Source: Streptomyces sp. 1-11 (GTDB lineage: Bacteria; Actinomycetota; Actinomycetes; Streptomycetales; Streptomycetaceae). Taken from it: 64,000 bases of DNA. Positions 36,866 to 46,280 of the stretch are shown one piece after another; the stretch's first letter is position 1, and the number at the start of each line of letters is the position of its first letter. The notes beneath the pieces were generated by a model that saw only the letters and a list, made by a program, of their open reading frames with translations, made no database searches and was not told the origin of the DNA. The position numbers and the translations under genes were made by a program. Where the stretch lies: positions 186,001 to 250,000 of the forward strand of contig NZ_BJTV01000003.1 of assembly GCF_007176755.1 (NCBI RefSeq). The letters run 5' to 3'.

Positions 36866-39463
36866 TCAGAGCGTCTTGCCCGTCGCCGGGCCCACGATCA
36901 GGCCCTCCTCGAAGCGGTCCACACGGACCGTGTCGCCGTCCTTGACCTCGCCGGAGAGGATCTCCTTGGCAAGGCGGTCGCCGATCGTGGTCTGCACCAG
37001 CCGGCGCAGCGGACGGGCGCCGTAGGCCGGGTCCAGGCCCTCCTCGGCGAGCCAGGCCAGCGCCTCGGGCGTGATGTCCAGGCTCAGCCGGCGCTCGGCC
37101 AGCCGCCTGGCCAGCCGGTCGATCTGGAGCTGGGCGATCCGCTCCAGCTCGGACCTGGTCAGCGCGGTGAAGACCACCAGGTCGTCGAGCCGGTTGAGGA
37201 ACTCCGGCTTGAAGGAGGCGCGTACGACCTCCAGCACCTGCTCCCGCTTCTCCGCCTCGCTGGTCACCGGGTCGACCAGGTACTGGCTGCCCAGGTTGGA
37301 GGTGAGCACCAGGATGGTGTTGCGGAAGTCCACCGTGCGGCCCTGGCCGTCCGTCAGCCGGCCGTCGTCCAGCACCTGCAGCAGGACGTCGAAGACCTCG
37401 GGGTGGGCCTTCTCCACCTCGTCCAGCAGCACCACGCTGTACGGGCGCCGCCGGACCGCCTCGGTGAGCTGGCCGCCCTCCTCGTAGCCGACGTAACCGG
37501 GAGGCGCGCCGACCAGCCGGGCCACGCTGTGCTTCTCGCCGTACTCCGACATGTCGATGCGGACCATGGCCCGCTCGTCGTCGAACAGGAAGTCGGCGAG
37601 CGCCTTGGCCAGTTCGGTCTTGCCGACACCGGTCGGGCCCAGGAAGAGGAAGGAGCCGGTGGGGCGGTCGGGGTCGGCGATGCCGGCCCGCGAGCGCCGC
37701 ACGGCGTCGCTCACCGCGCGCACGGCCTCGGTCTGGCCGATGAGGCGCCGGCCCAGCTCGTCCTCCATGCGCAGCAGCTTCTGCGTCTCGCCCTCCAGCA
37801 GCCGCCCGGCGGGGATGCCGGTCCAGGCGCCGACGACATCGGCGATGTCGTCCGCGCCGACCTCCTCCTTGACCATGGTGTCCCGGGCGACCTCCTCCTC
37901 GGCCTCGGAGGCGGCCTCCAGCTCCTTCTCCAGCTCCGGGATCCGGCCGTAGAGCAGCTTGGCCGCGGTGTCGAAGTCACCGTCGCGCTGGGCGCGTTCG
38001 GCCTGGCCGCGCAGGTCGTCCAGGCGCTCCTTCAGCTCACCGACCCGGTTGAGGGACTGCTTCTCCTTCTCCCAGCGGGCGGTCAGTCCGCGCAGCTCCT
38101 CCTCCTTGTCGGCGAGGTCGCGGCGCAGCTTCTCCAGACGCTCCCGGGAGGCCGGGTCGGTCTCCTTGGCGATCGCCAGCTCCTCCATCTTCAGCCGGTC
38201 GACGGAGCGCTGGAGCTCGTCGATCTCCACCGGGGAGGAGTCGATCTCCATGCGCAGCCGGGAGGCCGCCTCGTCGACCAGGTCGATGGCCTTGTCGGGC
38301 AGGAAGCGGGAGGTGATGTACCGGTCGGAGAGGGTGGCGGCGGCCACCAGGGCGCTGTCCGCGATCTGCACCTTGTGGTGGGCCTCGTAGCGGCCCTTGA
38401 GCCCGCGCAGGATGGCGATGGTGTCCTCGACGGTCGGCTCGGCGACCAGCACCTGCTGGAAGCGGCGCTCCAGGGCGGGATCCTTCTCGATCCGCTCCCG
38501 GTACTCGTCCAGGGTCGTGGCGCCGACCATGCGCAGCTCACCGCGGGCCAGCATCGGCTTGAGCATGTTGCCCGCGTCCATGGCGGAGTCGCCGCCCGCG
38601 CCGGCGCCCACCACGGTGTGCAGCTCGTCGATGAAGGTGATGACCTGGCCGTCGGACTCCTTGATCTCGGCGAGCACGGACTTCAGCCGCTCCTCGAACT
38701 CGCCGCGGTACTTGGCGCCGGCCACCATCGCGCCGAGGTCCAGCGCGACCAGCCGCTTGTCCTTCAGCGACTCGGGCACGTCGCCCTTCACGATCCGCTG
38801 GGCGAGCCCCTCCACGACGGCGGTCTTGCCGACGCCGGGCTCGCCGATGAGCACGGGGTTGTTCTTGGTACGGCGGCTCAGCACCTGCACCACCCGCCGG
38901 ATCTCCTGGTCCCGCCCGATGACCGGGTCGAGCCGGCCCTCGCGGGCGGCGGCGGTGAAGTCGGTGCCGAACTTCTCCAGGGCCTTGTACTGGCCCTCGG
39001 GATCGGCGGTGGTCACGCGGCGTCCTCCCCTGGCCTTGGTGAAGGCCTCTTCGAGCTTCTTGGCGTCGGCGCCCTGCTTGCGGAGCACCTCGCCGGCCGC
39101 GCCGCCCTTCGCGGCGACGCCGATGAGCAGGTGCTCGGTGGACAGGTACTCGTCGCCGAGCGCCTTGGCCCGCTCCGAGGCGTCGGCGATGACCGCGAGC
39201 AGCTCGCGGTTGGGCTGCGGGGGCGCGACGGTGGAGCCGGTCACGCTGGGCAGTCCGGCAAGCACCCGCTCCGCGCCGGAGCGCACGGCGGCCTGGTCGG
39301 CCTCGACGGCGGCGAGCAGGTCGGTGATGTTCTCGTTGTCCTGGCCCTGGAGCAGAGCCAGCAGCAGATGAGCGGGGGTGAGGTCCGGGTGCCCCTCGGT
39401 CACCGCGCGGTTGCCGGCGGCGTTGATCGCGTCCCGGCTCCTGTTGGTCAGCTCGGCGTCCAC
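36866..39463 (-). CDS. clpB: ClpB disaggregase
   Basis: 865 aa, full length. N-domain, AAA-1 with [10 protein letters not shown], the coiled-coil M-domain (about 400-520, Glu/Arg-rich) and AAA-2 with [14 protein letters not shown] plus the C-terminal D2 small domain. A hexameric ATPase, it works with DnaK/DnaJ/GrpE to solubilise aggregates after heat stress. A HAIR-like inverted repeat upstream fits repression by HspR, encoded at 44645. Confidence 0.97.
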
Positions 39464-39537
39464 GTGTCCGTTCTCCTCCTCGGCGTCGGCTCGACGGCCA
39501 GGTCCTTCCCAGTGCTGACTAGACCAGCGTACACAAA

Positions 39538-39558
39538 GTTGAGTCTATTCCGCTCAAG
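39538..39558. promoter_or_regulatory. HAIR element upstream of clpB
   Basis: TTGAGT, 7 nt, then GCTCAAG matches the HspR-binding HAIR consensus CTTGAGT-N7-ACTCAAG with few mismatches. It lies about 75 bp upstream of the clpB start. Confidence 0.8.
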
Positions 39559-39604
39559 GCGGGGCAGCGCGCGGGATGGGGAAATCAGCGGCTAGGTTTC
39601 GGCC

Positions 39605-40018
39605 ATGGCCAAGCACTCCGTAGACCCGGCTGCCCCGGACGAGCCCTATCTCGCCTTCTGGCGGGAACGGCATCTGTGCACCCTGACGACCCTGCGCCCG
39701 GACGGGAGCCCGCACGTGGTCCCGGTCGGGGTGACGTACGACCCCGCGGCCCGGCTGGCCCGGGTGATCACCAACGGGGGCAGCGCGAAGGCGGCCCACG
39801 TCCGCGCGGCCGGCGAGGAGGGCGCCCGGGTCGCGGTGTGCCAGGTGGACGGCCGGCGCTGGGCCACGCTGGAGGGCCGGGCCCGGGTGCGCGAGGACCG
39901 GGAGCGGGTCGCGGAGGCGGAGCGGCGGTACGCCGAGCGCTACCACCGGGTGCCTGCGGAGAACCCGCGGCGAGTGGTGATCGAGATCGAGGTCGAGCGA
40001 GCGCTCGGACACGGCTGA
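39605..40018 (+). CDS. PPOX-class (F420-type) oxidoreductase
   Basis: 137 aa. The split-barrel flavin/F420 fold is seen in [22 protein letters not shown] and [20 protein letters not shown]. It resembles small Rv1155-like pyridoxamine-5'-phosphate-oxidase-type proteins, which in actinobacteria mostly bind F420 and reduce unknown substrates. It is divergent from clpB. Confidence 0.85.
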
Positions 40019-40182
40019 CCCGGGCCGCCACGGACGCCGGCCATCGATTTCCGGCCAGTGTGGGAATGCGCCCATGCCCCGAAATGTCACCGCAAACTGC
40101 AGCGGCGTCACCGTGTTCAGGTCACGGTGACGCCGCTGCGGGGGGAAGCACCTGAGCGATCTTTTACGACGGGGGAATCGCG

Positions 40183-40518
40183 TCAGGCACTGCGGGGGGT
40201 GGCTGAGATGGTGGTGAGCTCCGGGTCGTCCGGCTCCGCCAGCCGATGGTCCCGTTGGTCCAGGTTCACAAAGATCATGCCGTAGCGGATGGCGCACCGC
40301 ACCGGCTGCGGCGCCCCGCGCGGCTTGCGCAGGCACCGGTAGGCCCGTACGTCCTCGTCCTCGTCCCGGGTGACGACGACCGGCTCTCCGAAGACGGTCA
40401 CCATCAACGAGTCACCACTGTGGGGGATGGCGGTGACCAGGTCGATGAAGTGCCAGCCGGAGCGGTAGGCGGTGGCCATCTCCCGCCTGAAGGACCGGTC
40501 GTCGGGTGGGGTGGTCAT
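40183..40518 (-). CDS. Short Rieske-like protein without iron ligands, coupled to repeat peptide
   Basis: 111 aa from ATG 40518, overlapping the stop of the repeat-peptide gene (ATGA). The text FGEPVVVTRDEDEDVRAYRCL and IRYGMIFVNLD resembles the N-terminus and the region just after the Rieske domain of ring-hydroxylating oxygenases. The CxH...CxxH iron-sulfur ligands are absent (only CLRKPRGAP). It may be a degenerate binding domain. The family is not recognised with confidence. Confidence 0.7.
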   Translation of the reverse strand: MTTPPDDRSFRREMATAYRSGWHFIDLVTAIPHSGDSLMVTVFGEPVVVTRDEDEDVRAYRCLRKPRGAPQPVRCAIRYGMIFVNLDQRDHRLAEPDDPELTTISATPRSA

Positions 40519-40787
40519 GCCCTCGCACCCGCCTGGACGGTGTCCCAGCCCAGATCCTGCCCGGACGCCATCGGACTGGTGCGCGGCGTGATGTCCCAGC
40601 CCAGATCCAGCCCGGACGCCATCGGACTGGTGCGCGGCGTGACGTCCCAGCCGAGGTCCAGCGCGGAGACGGCGTGACCGGCCGGCCGTACGATGTCCCA
40701 GCCGAGGTCCAGCGTGCTCACCGTGCCGAAGACCAGTCCTGTGGAGAAGGCCACGGCAAGTACTGAGCGAAGCATTCTCTTGCACAT
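40515..40787 (-). CDS. Secreted peptide precursor with four DLGWD repeats
   Basis: 90 aa from ATG 40787 (GAGG about 13 nt upstream); an in-frame ATG at 40775 is possible. The first 24 residues (KRMLRSVLAVAFSTGLVF) form a signal peptide. The rest is four repeats, each carrying DLGWD at residues 27, 44, 61 and 78, an exact 17-residue period. Two repeats have TPRTSPMASG spacers. The gene overlaps the next gene and is divergent from a LuxR-type gene. This looks like a multi-core precursor or signalling peptide; no known family is recognised. Confidence 0.8.
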   Translation of the reverse strand: MCKRMLRSVLAVAFSTGLVFGTVSTLDLGWDIVRPAGHAVSALDLGWDVTPRTSPMASGLDLGWDITPRTSPMASGQDLGWDTVQAGARA

Positions 40788-40916
40788 GATGGGCTTCGTC
40801 CTCACTTCCCCTGTGTCTCTCCCCCGCCTTGAAGACGATGGCTCATCAAGCCACGTCAAAGCCACAGAAGCGGTGCATCATGTTCCTGCATGTACAGGAC
40901 CCTGGGGGGTGGAGAT

Positions 40917-41942
40917 TTGCCTAATACTCACACGAACGAGACACATCATCCTCACGGGATGACGGATCTCTGTGAAGACGGCAAGCGCCTGTACGCCGAC
41001 GCGCTGCGGCTGGGACGCGTCGCCCGCCCGGAGGCGGAAGCCGCCCCCTGCCTGCTGGAACTCGCGCTGCTGCACCCCGATCCGGACGATCCGAAGTGGC
41101 TGCGGCCGGTACCGCCCGCCGCCGCGCTCGCCCAGCGTCTGCACCCGATCGAACGGGAGATCCAGGAGCGCAGACACGCCGCGATCGAACTCACCGATTC
41201 CTTCGAGCCATTCATGGCCATCAGCGCCCAGAGTACGGGGGACACCAACGCGGTCACCGTGCACGAGGGCATCGAGCGGATCAACGCGGCCATCGAACGG
41301 GCCACCGCCGACTGCCGGCACGAGGTGCTCACCGTGCAGCCCGGCGGCGGACGCAGCGAGAACGTCCTCGGCATCGCGCTGAAACGGGGTCAGGCCGTCA
41401 TCGAGCGCGGGATCTCCATGCGGACGCTGTACCAGCACACCGTGCGGCACAGCCAGGGGACGCTCGCGTACGCCGAGATCATGGCCAAGGGGAAGGTCGA
41501 GATACGCACGCTCGAGGAGCTGATCGAGCGTCTGATGATCTTCGACCGCACGGTCGCGTTCATCCCGGCCCGCGACGACCGCCAGGTGGCGCTGGAACTG
41601 CGGCACCCGGCCCTGGTGGCGTACCTGGTGAAGGTCTTCGAACAGCTCTGGCGGCGCGCGGTCCCGCTCCTGGAGGAGCCGGCCTACGCGCCCCCGGTCG
41701 ACGGTGTCACGGGGGTGCAGCGCTCCATCGCCAAGCTGCTGGTCGAGGGACACGTGGACGAGGCGATCGCCCGCCGCCTCGGCATGAACGTACGGACCTG
41801 CCGGGCCCACATCGCCAAGCTGGCCGCCGCCCTCGGCAGCGGCAGCCGCGCCCAGCTCGGCTACCTCATCGCCCGCTCCGGGCTGCTGGACCAGGAGCCG
41901 TACCCCGAGCCCGGCCTGCCGGCCCCGGCACCGCACGGCTGA
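40917..41942 (+). CDS. LuxR-type regulator A with TTG start
   Basis: 341 aa starting at TTG 40917 (GGAG just upstream). This start is preferred over ATG 40959 because it restores the stretch THTNETHHPHG, which matches the paralogue's N-terminus (GHGTEEHPHG). The N-terminal 280 residues are a large helical sensor-like region (TrmB-like/LuxR-associated type). The C-terminus has a LuxR-type HTH, VDEAIARRLGMNVRTCRAHIAKL. It is divergent from the repeat-peptide gene and convergent with its paralogue. Confidence 0.85.
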   Translation: MPNTHTNETHHPHGMTDLCEDGKRLYADALRLGRVARPEAEAAPCLLELALLHPDPDDPKWLRPVPPAAALAQRLHPIEREIQERRHAAIELTDSFEPFMAISAQSTGDTNAVTVHEGIERINAAIERATADCRHEVLTVQPGGGRSENVLGIALKRGQAVIERGISMRTLYQHTVRHSQGTLAYAEIMAKGKVEIRTLEELIERLMIFDRTVAFIPARDDRQVALELRHPALVAYLVKVFEQLWRRAVPLLEEPAYAPPVDGVTGVQRSIAKLLVEGHVDEAIARRLGMNVRTCRAHIAKLAAALGSGSRAQLGYLIARSGLLDQEPYPEPGLPAPAPHG

Positions 41943-41991
41943 CCGCCCGCCCCGGTGACGCCGCGCGGGAGCCGTGCCCGGCGCGCACGGC

Positions 41992-43044
41992 TCAGCGCAC
42001 GCTCGGGGACTCCTGGCCGGGCGCTCCCAGCGCGGCTCGGGGGGCCGGCGGGCCGCTGTGCGCGGGCCCGTCCAGGCCCACCTGGGCGATCCGCACGCCC
42101 AGTTGCGTACGGCTGGCCGCGCCGAGCGTGTCCGAGAGCCGGGCGATGTGCGCCCGGCAGGTGCGCACGCTGATGCCGAGCCGTTCGGCGATCACCGCGT
42201 CCTGGTGCCCCTCGGCGAGCAGCGCGGCGATGGACCGCTCGCGGTGCGAGATGCCCTCGATGCCGGTGTCGGGCAGCGGGGCCGTCAGCGGCAGCGCCAG
42301 CCGCCAGAGCCGCTCGAAGACGGTCACCAGGTACTCCACCAGGGCCGGGTGCCGCAGCTCCAGGGCCATCGTGCGCTCGGCGTTGGCGGGGATGAACGCG
42401 ACCGTGCGGTCGAAGAGGATCAGCCGGTCGATGACCTCGTCGAGGGTGCGGGCCTCGACCGTGCCGCCCATCAGCTCCAGGTAGTTGAGCAGCCCCTGCC
42501 CGTGCCGGGCCACGTGCGTGTACAGGTCGCGCATGCGCACGCCCCGGCCGCGCAGCGCGAGCGCCCGGTGCAGCCCCTCGGTCAGCTCGTCCTCGCGCCG
42601 GATGCCGCCGGGCTGCACGGTGAGCACCTGCGCGGTGCACGCGGCGGTCGCCTCGTCCATCGCGGCCTGGATGCGGGAGAGGCCGTCCAGCACCCGGATG
42701 GCCGTGCCCTCACCGGACGCCGTCAGCGCCTGCAGCCGGCTGCCCAGGCCCGCGTACCACTCGAAGGCGGCCACCGCCGAGCCCACCCGGCGCTGGCTCT
42801 CCCTGACCTCGTCGTGGACCCCGCGCAGCAGCCTGGTCATGACCTCCTGCGGTGAGGTCGGCACCAGCCAGTCCATGTCGTCGGGGTCGGGGTGCAGCAG
42901 GGCCAGTTCCAGCAGGCAGGGCACCGGCCCGGCGTCCGCGCGCGGCACCCGCCCCCGGCGTACGGCCCGGGAGTACACCCGGTCCCCGGCCGCGCACAGC
43001 CGGTCGGCACCGTGAGGATGCTCCTCCGTCCCGTGCCCGGCCAT
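41992..43044 (-). CDS. LuxR-type regulator B, paralogue of A
   Basis: 350 aa from ATG 43044 (GGTGGA upstream). It shares the whole layout with regulator A: HPHG N-terminus, LCxxGDRVY, PCLLELALLHPDPDD, EVxTVQPGG and the C-terminal HTH, DAVIAERLGISVRTCRAHIARL. The two genes are convergent, separated by 49 bp. The pair probably arose by inverted duplication, and one may sense the product of the DLGWD locus, though this is only inference. Confidence 0.85.
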   Translation of the reverse strand: MAGHGTEEHPHGADRLCAAGDRVYSRAVRRGRVPRADAGPVPCLLELALLHPDPDDMDWLVPTSPQEVMTRLLRGVHDEVRESQRRVGSAVAAFEWYAGLGSRLQALTASGEGTAIRVLDGLSRIQAAMDEATAACTAQVLTVQPGGIRREDELTEGLHRALALRGRGVRMRDLYTHVARHGQGLLNYLELMGGTVEARTLDEVIDRLILFDRTVAFIPANAERTMALELRHPALVEYLVTVFERLWRLALPLTAPLPDTGIEGISHRERSIAALLAEGHQDAVIAERLGISVRTCRAHIARLSDTLGAASRTQLGVRIAQVGLDGPAHSGPPAPRAALGAPGQESPSVR

Positions 43045-43216
43045 CGCCCATTCCACCCCCGGTTGCTGCCACTTCCGCAGCGCAACTATGCGCGGCCGGG
43101 ACCGGGTCCGCAACACGGCTCCGGCCGCCCCGGGCGGGGAAACCGGCCGGTATGCGCCGTTGCGTACGGTCTTCCGCCCGCCGCGGCAGCAACAAGCTGC
43201 AAGGGTGGGACGCGGG

Positions 43217-44323
43217 CTACTTCAGGCCGATCGACGCGCAGGCCGCCTTGTACTTGGCCGTGCAGATGTCGCCGACCGAGTAGATGCCGTCGGCGATGAC
43301 GGTGTCCTTGATCTTGGCCCGGGTCAGGGCGCTCACCTGGACGAGCCGGGACGGGATGTCCTTGTCGGTGGGGCTGTCGACGCGGTCCTGGGTCAGGGCG
43401 TCGAACTGGATGTCCTTGCCCTGCACCTTGGTGACGGCCATCTGGGCCGCGGCCTCGGCCTCGTCCGGGTAGGACTTGTAGACGCTCATGTACTGCTCGC
43501 CGGCCACGATGCGCTGCACCGCGTCCAGTTCGGCGTCCTGGCCGGTGATCGGGGGCAGCTTGGTGACACCGGCCGCCGTCAGGGCCTTGATGACACCGCC
43601 CGCCATGCCGTCGTTGGCGGAGTAGACCGCGGCGATGTTGTCCTTGCCGATACTGGCGATCGCCTTGGCCATGTTGGCCTCGGCGTTCTCCGGCTTCCAG
43701 TCCGTGGTGTCGAAGGACTGCGCGATGTCCACCTTGCCGTTCAGCTCCGACAGCGCGCCCTGCTTGAACTGCTTGGCGTTGGGGTCGGTGGGCGAGCCGT
43801 TCATCATGACGACCTTGTCGGAGGTGTCCACGCCCGAGCCCAGGGCCTCCAGCAGCGAGCGGCCCTGCACCTCGCCTACCAGCTCGTTGTCGAAGGAGAT
43901 GTAGGCGTCGATCGGGCCCTCGGCGAGCCGGTCGTAGGCGATGACGGGGATGCCCGCCTCCTTGGCCTTCTTCACCTCGCCGACGATGCCGTGCGAGTCG
44001 ACCGCGTCGAGCAGGATGACGTCGACCTTGTCGTCGATCATCGTCTGCATCTGGCCGGCCTGCCGGGAGGCGTCCGCGTCCGCGTTGGCGTACTGGACCG
44101 TGCCCTTCTTGTGGGTCAGTTCGGCCACCTTGGCCTTGATGATCGGGTAGTCGAACTTGTCGTAGCGCGTGTTCGCCTTCTCCGGCAGCAGCAGCCCGAC
44201 GGTGACGTCGTCGCCCTTCGTCGGGCTCGCGCTCGCACCGTCCCCCGTCGCGTCCAGCACGCCGCACCCGGCGAGCGAAAGGATCATCGTGGACGCGGCC
44301 ACGGATATGGCGATACGACGCAT
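43217..44323 (-). CDS. Sugar-binding lipoprotein, Peripla_BP_4 type
   Basis: 368 aa from ATG 44323; a GTG at 44335 adds four residues. The signal peptide ends in the lipobox LSLAGC. The body follows ribose/xylose-type ABC binding proteins (VDVILLDAVDSHG, VIAYDRLAEGP, YISFDNELVGEVQG, AVYSANDGMAGGVI). No permease or ATPase gene is adjacent, so it is an orphan receptor component. It precedes no obvious operon. Confidence 0.88.
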   Translation of the reverse strand: MRRIAISVAASTMILSLAGCGVLDATGDGASASPTKGDDVTVGLLLPEKANTRYDKFDYPIIKAKVAELTHKKGTVQYANADADASRQAGQMQTMIDDKVDVILLDAVDSHGIVGEVKKAKEAGIPVIAYDRLAEGPIDAYISFDNELVGEVQGRSLLEALGSGVDTSDKVVMMNGSPTDPNAKQFKQGALSELNGKVDIAQSFDTTDWKPENAEANMAKAIASIGKDNIAAVYSANDGMAGGVIKALTAAGVTKLPPITGQDAELDAVQRIVAGEQYMSVYKSYPDEAEAAAQMAVTKVQGKDIQFDALTQDRVDSPTDKDIPSRLVQVSALTRAKIKDTVIADGIYSVGDICTAKYKAACASIGLK

Positions 44324-44644
44324 TCGAGGGCTCACTTCAGGTGCGATCCGGACGTGGGCGCTGCTTTACGACCCAGGTGTCTGAAAAGACAACGCGGCGC
44401 GCCCACCCGGCGTCAAGCGGAACTACTTAACGAGTGCGCAACAGCACGCTCCGCTGCATCTGTGAAGGAGGAGCGGAATCCCCTCCAAACACTCTTTACG
44501 GACCCTCCACGCAGAGGAAGTTCACGGAAGGGCAAAGATCCGCCCGGCCGACGGCGGCCGCGGCGCACACGAAAGGGGCCGGGGACGGTCACCCGTCCCC
44601 GGCCCCTGCCGGTGCTCGCCGCGGCCCGCGCGGGCCGCCCGCGC
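44324..44644. other. Gap between lipoprotein start and hspR, with hspR-side terminator
   Basis: No gene is seen. It contains the promoter of the lipoprotein gene and the terminator listed separately. Confidence 0.6.
44575..44606 (-). terminator. Terminator of the dnaK-hspR operon
   Basis: Perfect 14-bp arms GGGGCCGGGGACGG and its complement with a TCAC loop, 38 bp past the hspR stop. Confidence 0.85.
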
Positions 44645-45103
44645 TCAGTCGGCCTGCTGCTGCCGCTTCGGCCGCCACACCACCAGCGCGCTGGTCTGCT
44701 GGACCTCCTGATACGGCACCAGGTCGCGCCGGTAGGAGGCGTGCACGGCCGCCTCGCGCTGCCGCATCGCGGTCGCCGCGCCCTCCAGGGCGTCCTGCAG
44801 CTCCGCGACGCGGGACTGCAACGCGGCGACCTGGTTCTCCAGTTCGATGATGCGCTTGATACCGGCCAGGTTGATGCCCTCGTCCTGCGACAACGCCTGC
44901 ACCTGGCGGAGCAGTTCGATGTCACGGGCCGAATAGCGGCGGCCCCGCCCCGCCGTGCGGTCCGGGGAGACCAGACCCAGACGGTCGTACTGGCGCAACG
45001 TCTGCGGATGGAGACCGGAGAGCTGGGCCGCCACCGAGATGACGTAGACCGGGGTCTCCTCGGTCAGTTCGTACGGATTACGCCGACGGCCGGGTGTGTC
45101 CAT
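44645..45103 (-). CDS. hspR: HspR heat-shock repressor (MerR family)
   Basis: 152 aa. The MerR winged helix is VISVAAQLSGLHPQTLRQYDRLGL and the long dimerisation helix follows with IKRIIELENQVAALQSRVAEL. The protein ends with a Lys/Gln tail. It binds HAIR sites upstream of dnaK and clpB together with DnaK as co-repressor, closing a feedback loop. It is the last gene of the operon, 7 bp after dnaJ. Confidence 0.96.
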   Translation of the reverse strand: MDTPGRRRNPYELTEETPVYVISVAAQLSGLHPQTLRQYDRLGLVSPDRTAGRGRRYSARDIELLRQVQALSQDEGINLAGIKRIIELENQVAALQSRVAELQDALEGAATAMRQREAAVHASYRRDLVPYQEVQQTSALVVWRPKRQQQAD

Positions 45104-45110
45104 GGGGCGC

Positions 45111-46280
45111 TCAATCTCCCTTCGCGGCCTCGAACAGCTCCGCCCGCGGGTCCTCGCCCGCGGTCGCCTCGCGATACGCCTCCAGCGCGTCACGAGCCTT
45201 CCCCGACAGGTCCTTCGGCACACTCACCTCGACGGTGACCAGCAGGTCGCCGCGGGTGCCGTCCTTGCGGACCGCGCCCTTGCCCCGGGCGCGCATGGTG
45301 CGCCCGTTCGGGGTGCCGGGCGGCAGCTTCAGGGTGACCGCCGGGCCGCCGAGGGTCGGGACCCTGACCTCGCCGCCGAGGGCCGCCTCGGCGAACGTGA
45401 CCGGCACTGTGACGGTGAGGTTGTCGTCCCTGCGCCCGAACACCGGGTGCTCGCCGACGTGCACGACCACGTAGAGGTCGCCCGCCGGCCCGCCCCGCTC
45501 GCCGGGCGCGCCCTTGCCGCGCAGCCGGATCCGCTGCCCGTCCGTCACGCCGGCCGGGATGCGGACCTGCATGGTGCGCGAGGACTTGGCACGGCCGCTG
45601 CCCTTGCACTCCATGCAGGGGTGCTCGGCGATCAGGCCGCGGCCCTTGCAGTCGGGGCAGGGGTCGGTGAGCGAGAACCCGCCGCCCGAGCCCCGGGCCA
45701 CCTGCCCGGTGCCGACGCAGGTCGGGCACACGCGCGGTGTGCCGTTCTTGTCGCCGGTGCCCGAACAGGCCTTGCAGGGCGCCTGGGAGGACATCCGCAG
45801 CGGCACCGTGGCGCCCTCGATGGCCTCCGTGAAGCTCAGCGTGACCTCGGTGTCGATGTCCTGGCCGCGCCGCGGCTGGGTGCGGGTGGTGCCCGTGCCG
45901 CCGCGGTTGAACAGGCCCCCGAAGACGTCGCCGATGCCGCCGCCGAAGCCGCCCGAGCCCTGTGCGTTGCCCCCGAAGAGGTCGCCCAGGTCGAAGTTGA
46001 AGTTGCCGCCGCCGGCGCCCGGCCCGGGGCGGAAGCCGCCGTTGCCGAACAGGGCGCGCGCCTCGTCGTACTCCTTGCGCTTCTTCGGGTCGCCGAGGAC
46101 GTCGTTCGCCTCGGAGATCTCCTTGAAGCGCTCCTCGGCCCTGGCGTTGCCCTTGTTGGCGTCCGGGTGGAACTCGCGGGCGAGCTTCCGGTACGCCTTC
46201 TTGATCTCGGCCTCGGTGGCGTCCTTGGGGACGCCGAGGACCTTGTAGTAGTCCTTCTCGATGAAGTCCTTGGTGCTCAT
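45111..46280 (-). CDS. dnaJ: DnaJ chaperone
   Basis: 389 aa. The J domain carries HPD in FHPDANKG, then a Gly/Phe-rich stretch, four zinc-finger repeats (CKACSGTG, CPTCVGTG, CPDCKGRG, CMECKGSG) and the C-terminal substrate domain. It delivers substrates to DnaK and stimulates its ATPase. It is third in dnaK-grpE-dnaJ-hspR. Confidence 0.96.
   Translation of the reverse strand: MSTKDFIEKDYYKVLGVPKDATEAEIKKAYRKLAREFHPDANKGNARAEERFKEISEANDVLGDPKKRKEYDEARALFGNGGFRPGPGAGGGNFNFDLGDLFGGNAQGSGGFGGGIGDVFGGLFNRGGTGTTRTQPRRGQDIDTEVTLSFTEAIEGATVPLRMSSQAPCKACSGTGDKNGTPRVCPTCVGTGQVARGSGGGFSLTDPCPDCKGRGLIAEHPCMECKGSGRAKSSRTMQVRIPAGVTDGQRIRLRGKGAPGERGGPAGDLYVVVHVGEHPVFGRRDDNLTVTVPVTFAEAALGGEVRVPTLGGPAVTLKLPPGTPNGRTMRARGKGAVRKDGTRGDLLVTVEVSVPKDLSGKARDALEAYREATAGEDPRAELFEAAKGD

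Follow-up and report, generated by a model that had tools for sequence, protein, structure and literature searches.

A small repeat-peptide gene (pep), a gene for a degenerate Rieske protein (riesk) and a divergently oriented regulator gene (lux1) recur side by side across Streptomyces and probably constitute a genus-wide peptide-pheromone system, in which a prepro-peptide supplies a short signal to lux1 as its cytoplasmic receptor. Four properties can be read directly from the sequences: the linkage of these genes, the constraint on the repeated peptide word within each genome, its diversification between genomes, and its residue-level covariation with lux1.

Organization of the module

The window analysed here is a stretch of 64,000 nucleotides from Streptomyces sp. 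1-11, in which the following features were recognized.

40515..40787, reverse strand: pep, 90-aa prepro-peptide with a basic/hydrophobic N-terminus followed by four DLGWD; a homologous precursor occupies the same place in 109/109 loci
40713..40787, reverse strand: predicted Sec-type signal-peptide-like N-terminus of pep (residues 1-25), with MxKRMLRSVL.. kept genus-wide
40695..40709, reverse strand: DLGWD copy 1 (residues 27-31)
40644..40658, reverse strand: DLGWD copy 2 (residues 44-48)
40593..40607, reverse strand: DLGWD copy 3 (residues 61-65)
40542..40556, reverse strand: DLGWD copy 4 (residues 78-82)
40183..40518, reverse strand: riesk, 111-aa degenerate N-terminal fragment of a Rieske/ring-hydroxylating oxygenase (RHO) alpha protein, without 2Fe-2S ligands, C-terminus ATPRSA
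40099..40139, reverse strand: hairpin downstream of riesk, 17-bp stem, no U-tract (MFE z-score -4.2)
40876..40899, reverse strand: conserved inverted repeat TCCTG-N6-CAGGAACATGATG, a candidate operator for lux1
40905..40914, forward strand: Shine-Dalgarno-like GGGGGTGGAG of lux1, from the sequence
40917..41942, forward strand: lux1, putative pheromone receptor, divergent from pep (350-aa ORF from ATG 40890)
41992..43116, reverse strand: lux2, adjacent lux1 paralogue, about 50% identical, which does not covary with the motif and served as internal negative control

Several elements of the initial annotation were recovered unchanged, namely the 90-aa ORF with its signal-peptide-like leader, DLGWD at residues 27, 44, 61 and 78 in a 17-residue period, a TPRTSPMASG spacer that occurs twice, and the overlap of the pep stop with the start of the 111-aa ORF, which amounts to 4 bases. 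Judging from this layout, riesk is translationally coupled to pep, and because a hairpin follows riesk, the two genes seem to form a single transcription unit with its probable transcript end there. A scan for consensus sigma-70-like promoters or U-tract terminators gave no match, as is usual for Streptomyces. The true start of lux1 is probably the TTG at 40917, which is conserved together with the Shine-Dalgarno-like GGGTGGAG; of about 107 lux1 homologues, 97 have a TTG or ATG at the corresponding position. Counted from this TTG, the gap to pep is 130 bp, the distance that had been given for the divergent LuxR-type gene.

On one flank of the module, the window carries clpB (36866-39463) and a PPOX-family gene, and on the other a sugar-binding-protein gene, an HspR/MerR-like ORF and a DnaJ ORF (45111-46280). 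The module adjoins clpB in the window and in related loci, with hspR/dnaJ-type ORFs lying beyond it on the opposite side in the window (36866-46280).

Distribution in Streptomyces

The riesk gene was detected in 250 of 289 good Streptomyces genomes (~86%). In a family-wide sample, it was found in 51 Streptomyces genomes, and the other genera gave short matches inside long oxygenase-type frames; judged by these genomes, the pep/riesk/lux1 module is a Streptomyces trait not shared by the rest of the family. Each of the 109 oriented loci has a small [DEN]xxW precursor gene between its riesk and lux1, and the distance from this gene to the start of the lux1 ORF is usually about 105 bp. This three-gene arrangement is far beyond chance, and the question raised in the initial annotation, whether the 111-aa gene and the divergent lux1 stay linked to the repeat peptide, is answered alike at every one of these loci. 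Moreover, in 20 Streptomyces genomes that have no riesk, a lux1 orthologue is missing as well (best identity 27-43%), so that the genes of the module come and go together. No plasmid record contained riesk, and the distant LuxR paralogues of the source genome (L033-L036) had no adjoining [DEN]xxW peptide. A divergent Streptomyces clade (L228-L231) has riesk and lux1 products that are 39-46% and 57-60% identical, respectively, and a precursor in which the word, DPTWG or DPAWD, occurs once, at the C-terminus.

The precursor and its repeated word

A positively charged n-region and a hydrophobic 15-mer (mean Kyte-Doolittle >=1.7) occur in 109/109 precursors, and in many genomes an AxA/VxA-type site is found directly ahead of the first copy (VRA immediately followed by D..W). 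Across these precursors, 304 of 305 Trp residues lie inside [DEN]xxW, and the number of copies ranges from 1 to 10, with a single copy in 24/109. The tetrapeptide is identical in 447/456 copy pairs within a precursor versus 3.4% of pairs between genomes, the 109 genomes using 33 different tetrapeptide words. Codon comparisons between copies revealed 378 synonymous and 9 nonsynonymous differences in the motif versus 244 synonymous and 1163 nonsynonymous differences in the four codons that follow it; although copies from one precursor do not give independent pairs, the two ratios are about 200-fold apart. This difference between the motif and its adjoining codons indicates that selection at the protein level holds the copies to one sequence.

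On these comparisons, the repeat unit is a tetra- or pentapeptide, [DEN]xxW(x), and not the 17-residue period. The exact repetition emphasized in the initial annotation thus stands for [DEN]xxW within genomes, whereas the 17-residue period and the word DLGWD are peculiar to the window genome. Copy number and spacers vary, while the motif is fixed within each genome.

The pentamer forms the exact end of the precursor in 30/109 cases, as it does in four divergent single-copy precursors (..QQDPTWG or ..QQDPAWD, followed by the stop); in the remaining precursors, the copies are internal rather than terminal. Among multi-copy precursors, 66/85 have a fixed residue 5, whereas this residue varies freely in the DSTW/DSSW clade and in L118, so that the ligand may comprise either four or five residues. 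Members of the DSTW/DSSW clade are L051, L054, L057-L061, L063, L199, L200, L202 and L211.

The lux1 regulator and its covariation with the word

Profile comparisons matched lux1 residues ~61-256 to the TrmBL2 structures 5BOX/5BPD/5BQT (E ~1.5e-4) and placed a LuxR-type HTH at the C-terminus (residues ~268-335). The GerE domain was matched by 43/44 lux1 homologues at E<=0.01 (best 3.6e-4); the window lux1 itself scores under the curated GerE cut-off (17.6 vs 23.5 bits). Pfam searches of lux1 matched neither TPR repeats nor an AHL-type autoinducer-binding domain. An AlphaFold model built from an alignment of lux1 and lux2 was unusable (pLDDT 44) and was discarded.

With site numbers counted from ATG 40890, the distance between lux1 sensor domains follows the distance between motifs (r=0.60), and the relationship persists when HTH and riesk distances are taken into account (partial 0.61, permutation p=0.001); the corresponding partial value for HTH distance is -0.10. 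At the residue level, site 146 is Met with Ser at motif residue 2, Val with Thr and Leu with Pro. Site 167 is Asp exclusively with Ser/Thr at motif residue 2, and otherwise Gly/Ala with Leu/Ile, Ser with Val, and Val/Met/Ile with Pro. This residue-2 rule for sites 146 and 167 holds in 126/126 genomes: it was set on 108 genomes and then tried on 18 held-out genomes, all of which obeyed it, including one that has the Pro word DPVWD without belonging to the clade in which Pro was first seen. Four more divergent genomes with the words DPTWG/DPAWD, whose lux1 is 57-60% identical, carry L146/V167, as the rule predicts.

Tree parsimony placed 14 S/T changes in the motif and 14 changes at site 146, with 14/14 coinciding in the same direction, and 7/7 of those on well-supported branches. 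Among path-disjoint pairs, drawn on lux1's own tree as independent pairs, site 146 differs in 16/17 with a changed word versus 2/58 with an unchanged word (p=2.9e-13), and it is the sole such site of 350 (Bonferroni 1e-10). Motif residue 3 tracks site 153 (Bonferroni 0.016) and site 155 (0.066), followed by 163, 193 and 161. Close relatives offer the same picture: a DSRWD and a DTRWD genome with lux1 93% identical differ by M146V, and between DSTW and DSSW relatives, sites 162/163/165 switch together, from Q-G-N (DSTW) to K-A-E (DSSW). In lux2, the equivalent positions hold V/A (one G) in seven genomes of differing words. The proposal that the LuxR proteins act as sensors is therefore borne out for lux1, which covaries with the motif, but not for lux2, whose residues are the same whatever the motif.

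The covariation argues strongly for direct recognition of the motif by lux1. It can prove recognition only, not its place, and would also be expected from cytoplasmic binding before export.

Most genomes carry 1-3 extra TrmB-LuxR paralogues beside lux1, such as lux2 in the window or the LuxR genes that follow lux1 in tandem in L179-L197. The L228-L231 loci contain three or more TrmB-LuxR genes in tandem, of which the first two have L/V at sites 146/167. Tandem paralogues on the same strand may be secondary receptors, since they often have Asp at the equivalent of site 167 in genomes with Ser/Thr words (G276, G151, G013, G049).

The riesk product

Similarity of riesk to Rieske proteins is faint in Pfam (15.9 bits, under the 20.3 cut-off) and clearer in profile matches to the N-terminal part of ring-hydroxylating oxygenase alpha proteins (2.7e-5 to 9jp5/5xbp); Foldseek also ranked RHO structures at the top, albeit weakly (E = 0.016). 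The CxH...CxxH cluster ligands are absent from 16 diverse riesk sequences and from a 109-sequence consensus. In the segment '..RAYRCLR.PRGAPQPVRCA.RYGMIFVNLD..', the strand before the first ligand loop is joined to the strand after the second, and the catalytic oxygenase domain is missing altogether. As the 2Fe-2S ligands have been lost, the term "Rieske-like" used in the initial annotation is correct by descent only. The protein is nevertheless far better conserved than lux1 (95% vs 65% in L048, for example), and by its sequence conservation riesk must have a fixed partner. We would guess that it is a conserved cluster-less accessory protein that acts in precursor maturation or modulates the receptor or the peptide. 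After a linker whose length varies, riesk ends in the invariant hexapeptide ATPRSA (window 40183-40200); the exception is L228-L231, with SESITPHCA.

The intergenic element

An exact-type palindrome TCCTG-N6-CAGGA occurs between lux1 and pep in 96/109 loci, and the element as such is recognisable in 109/109. A genome search with the 24-mer at up to 3 mismatches found no second copy, and matches to the 16-mer palindrome genome-wide showed no excess over a reversed control (281 vs 406 matches), so that no regulon was found. The lux1-pep intergenic region contains about 40 bp (CACCCCCCAGGGTCCTGAACATGCAGGAACATGATGCATCG, window 40860-40930) that are near-invariant genus-wide, a stretch longer than one palindrome requires.

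Proposed mechanism and alternative explanations

To the properties listed at the outset, the pheromone reading adds secretion, processing, re-import, direct binding and autoregulation. The pep product would be exported by means of its Sec-type signal peptide, and the precursor would be cut into short linear [D/E/N]-x-x-W-x peptides (here DLGWD), genome-specific and present in 1-10 copies. An oligopeptide permease would return the mature peptide to the cytoplasm, where the TrmB-like sensor domain of lux1 would bind it, peptide residue 2 packing on sites 146/167 and residue 3 on sites 153/155/161-163. The bound peptide may then alter the action of the LuxR-type HTH at the intergenic palindrome and at further targets, and signal and receptor would form an autoregulatory loop.

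The place at which the motif is met offers the main room for another explanation, in which lux1 binds the precursor before export, or fragments of it degraded in the cytoplasm, and the module serves to monitor secretion or proteostasis. By its sequence, lux1 is cytoplasmic, the covariation is silent on location, and the module sits in a heat-shock neighbourhood, between clpB and the hspR/dnaJ genes. A stress sensor, however, needs no species-diverse ligand with identical copies in each genome, and multiple copies with C-terminal placement suit processed pheromones; intracellular sensing is therefore considered unlikely. Still less probable is that the [DEN]xxWx words are the modified cores of a multi-core RiPP, with riesk as all or part of the maturase, although such a product might itself signal. 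Exact core repetition, the invariant Trp and a companion protein that descends from oxygenases, is strictly conserved and is translationally coupled to pep would fit this idea, but the CxH and CxxH ligands are gone in all aligned riesk homologues along with the catalytic domain, no other conserved RiPP-class enzyme lies beside pep, whose constant neighbours are riesk and lux1 only, the flanking clpB and PPOX genes do not encode RiPP enzymes, and the leader is a signal peptide. The RiPP-core branch of the initial annotation thus found no support, whereas its signalling-peptide branch is strongly favoured by the genus-wide linkage, by motif conservation within but not between genomes, and by the covariation with lux1.

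The signal peptide and repeats would also suit a secreted structural or binding protein of the tandem-repeat type, with lux1 as an ordinary local regulator. Yet 24/109 precursors are single-copy, spacers are free, and the motif is tracked by the lux1 ligand domain rather than by its HTH, which makes a structural role very hard to sustain. Equally improbable is a phylogenetic artefact, in which motif and lux1 sites were co-inherited without recognition. The species are related and the classes at site 167 change just about six times on the tree, but the site-146 switches coincide with those of the motif in all 14 cases (7/7 on well-supported branches), changed and unchanged pairs are sharply separated at this site (16/17 against 2/58), the DSRWD/DTRWD relatives differ there by M146V, and lux2 does not follow.

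Relation to known systems and significance

The pheromone system proposed here resembles the RRNPP systems of Bacillota (Rap-Phr, PlcR-PapR, Rgg-SHP, ComR-XIP, NprR-NprX, AimR-AimP) in its divergent or adjacent small prepro-peptide with a basic and then hydrophobic N-terminus, its predicted short linear peptide, placed at the C-terminus in some precursors, its cytoplasmic DNA-binding receptor, and a species-specific code that covaries with the receptor. It differs from them in that the Streptomyces receptor combines a TrmB-like sensor with a LuxR-type HTH, whereas the RRNPP receptor is a TPR protein, and in having up to 10 units per precursor, riesk as a third conserved gene, and an actinomycetotal host range confined to Streptomyces. 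Multi-unit precursors are known from yeast, in which the secreted alpha-factor precursor MFalpha contains several near-identical pheromone units separated by free spacers; the likeness ends there, as sequences, maturation and receptor (a yeast GPCR) are unrelated. The profile match of residues 61-256 links lux1 to archaeal TrmB/TrmBL2, from which it differs by a C-terminal HTH of the LuxR/GerE type and by a predicted ligand that is a peptide rather than a sugar.

Within Streptomyces, gamma-butyrolactone systems (AfsA/ArpA, ScbA/ScbR) provide genus-level quorum sensing tied to antibiotic production (PMC4748050). Their signals are enzyme-made small molecules read by TetR-type receptors, in contrast to the gene-encoded peptide considered here. 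Another possible parallel is the 655-Da extracellular peptide imported by BldK of S. coelicolor (cited in PMC9640686): both would be short extracellular peptides taken up by an oligopeptide permease, and [DEN]xxWx pentamers weigh 520-691 Da by calculation, a likeness that serves as a lead only. No common pentamer fits 655 Da, and one near match is DTHWP (654.28). A literature search, with subscription papers and preprints outside its scope, found no published description of [DEN]xxW words or of a Streptomyces peptide pheromone of this kind.

In S. coelicolor, clpB is SCO3661 (PMC2687793), SCO3665 (327 aa) and SCO3666 (394 aa) are LuxR genes (PMC3282765), and insertions in SCO3664, annotated as 'regulator', are among those that raise actinorhodin more than 50-fold (PMC6585502). 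Gene order alone suggests that SCO3664 is the lux1 orthologue. If so, the regulator would repress actinorhodin and would be the gene behind the >50-fold phenotype.

Together, the species-specific word and the lux1 sensor that changes in step with it suggest that the main genus of antibiotic producers has a peptide language not described before. With somewhat less confidence than for the pheromone reading itself, but still in its favour, we propose that these genes represent a new class of peptide signalling in bacteria, whose hallmarks are a TrmB-LuxR receptor, a prepro-peptide with multiple [DEN]xxWx copies and a Rieske mini-protein that lacks the cluster. This class would be present in ~86% of Streptomyces, would have a recognition code readable residue by residue and control over antibiotic production, and may include the oligopeptide signals imported by BldK-type permeases. 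Streptomyces communication has so far been described almost wholly in terms of small molecules such as gamma-butyrolactones. If the proposal is true, a peptide code would give the genus responsible for most antibiotics a second language, and receptor specificity could be read from genomes. Synthetic pentapeptides might then serve as inducers or silencers of antibiotic clusters, cross-talk groups between species would become predictable, and the module would offer orthogonal signalling parts for engineering as well as candidates for the oligopeptide signal imported by BldK.
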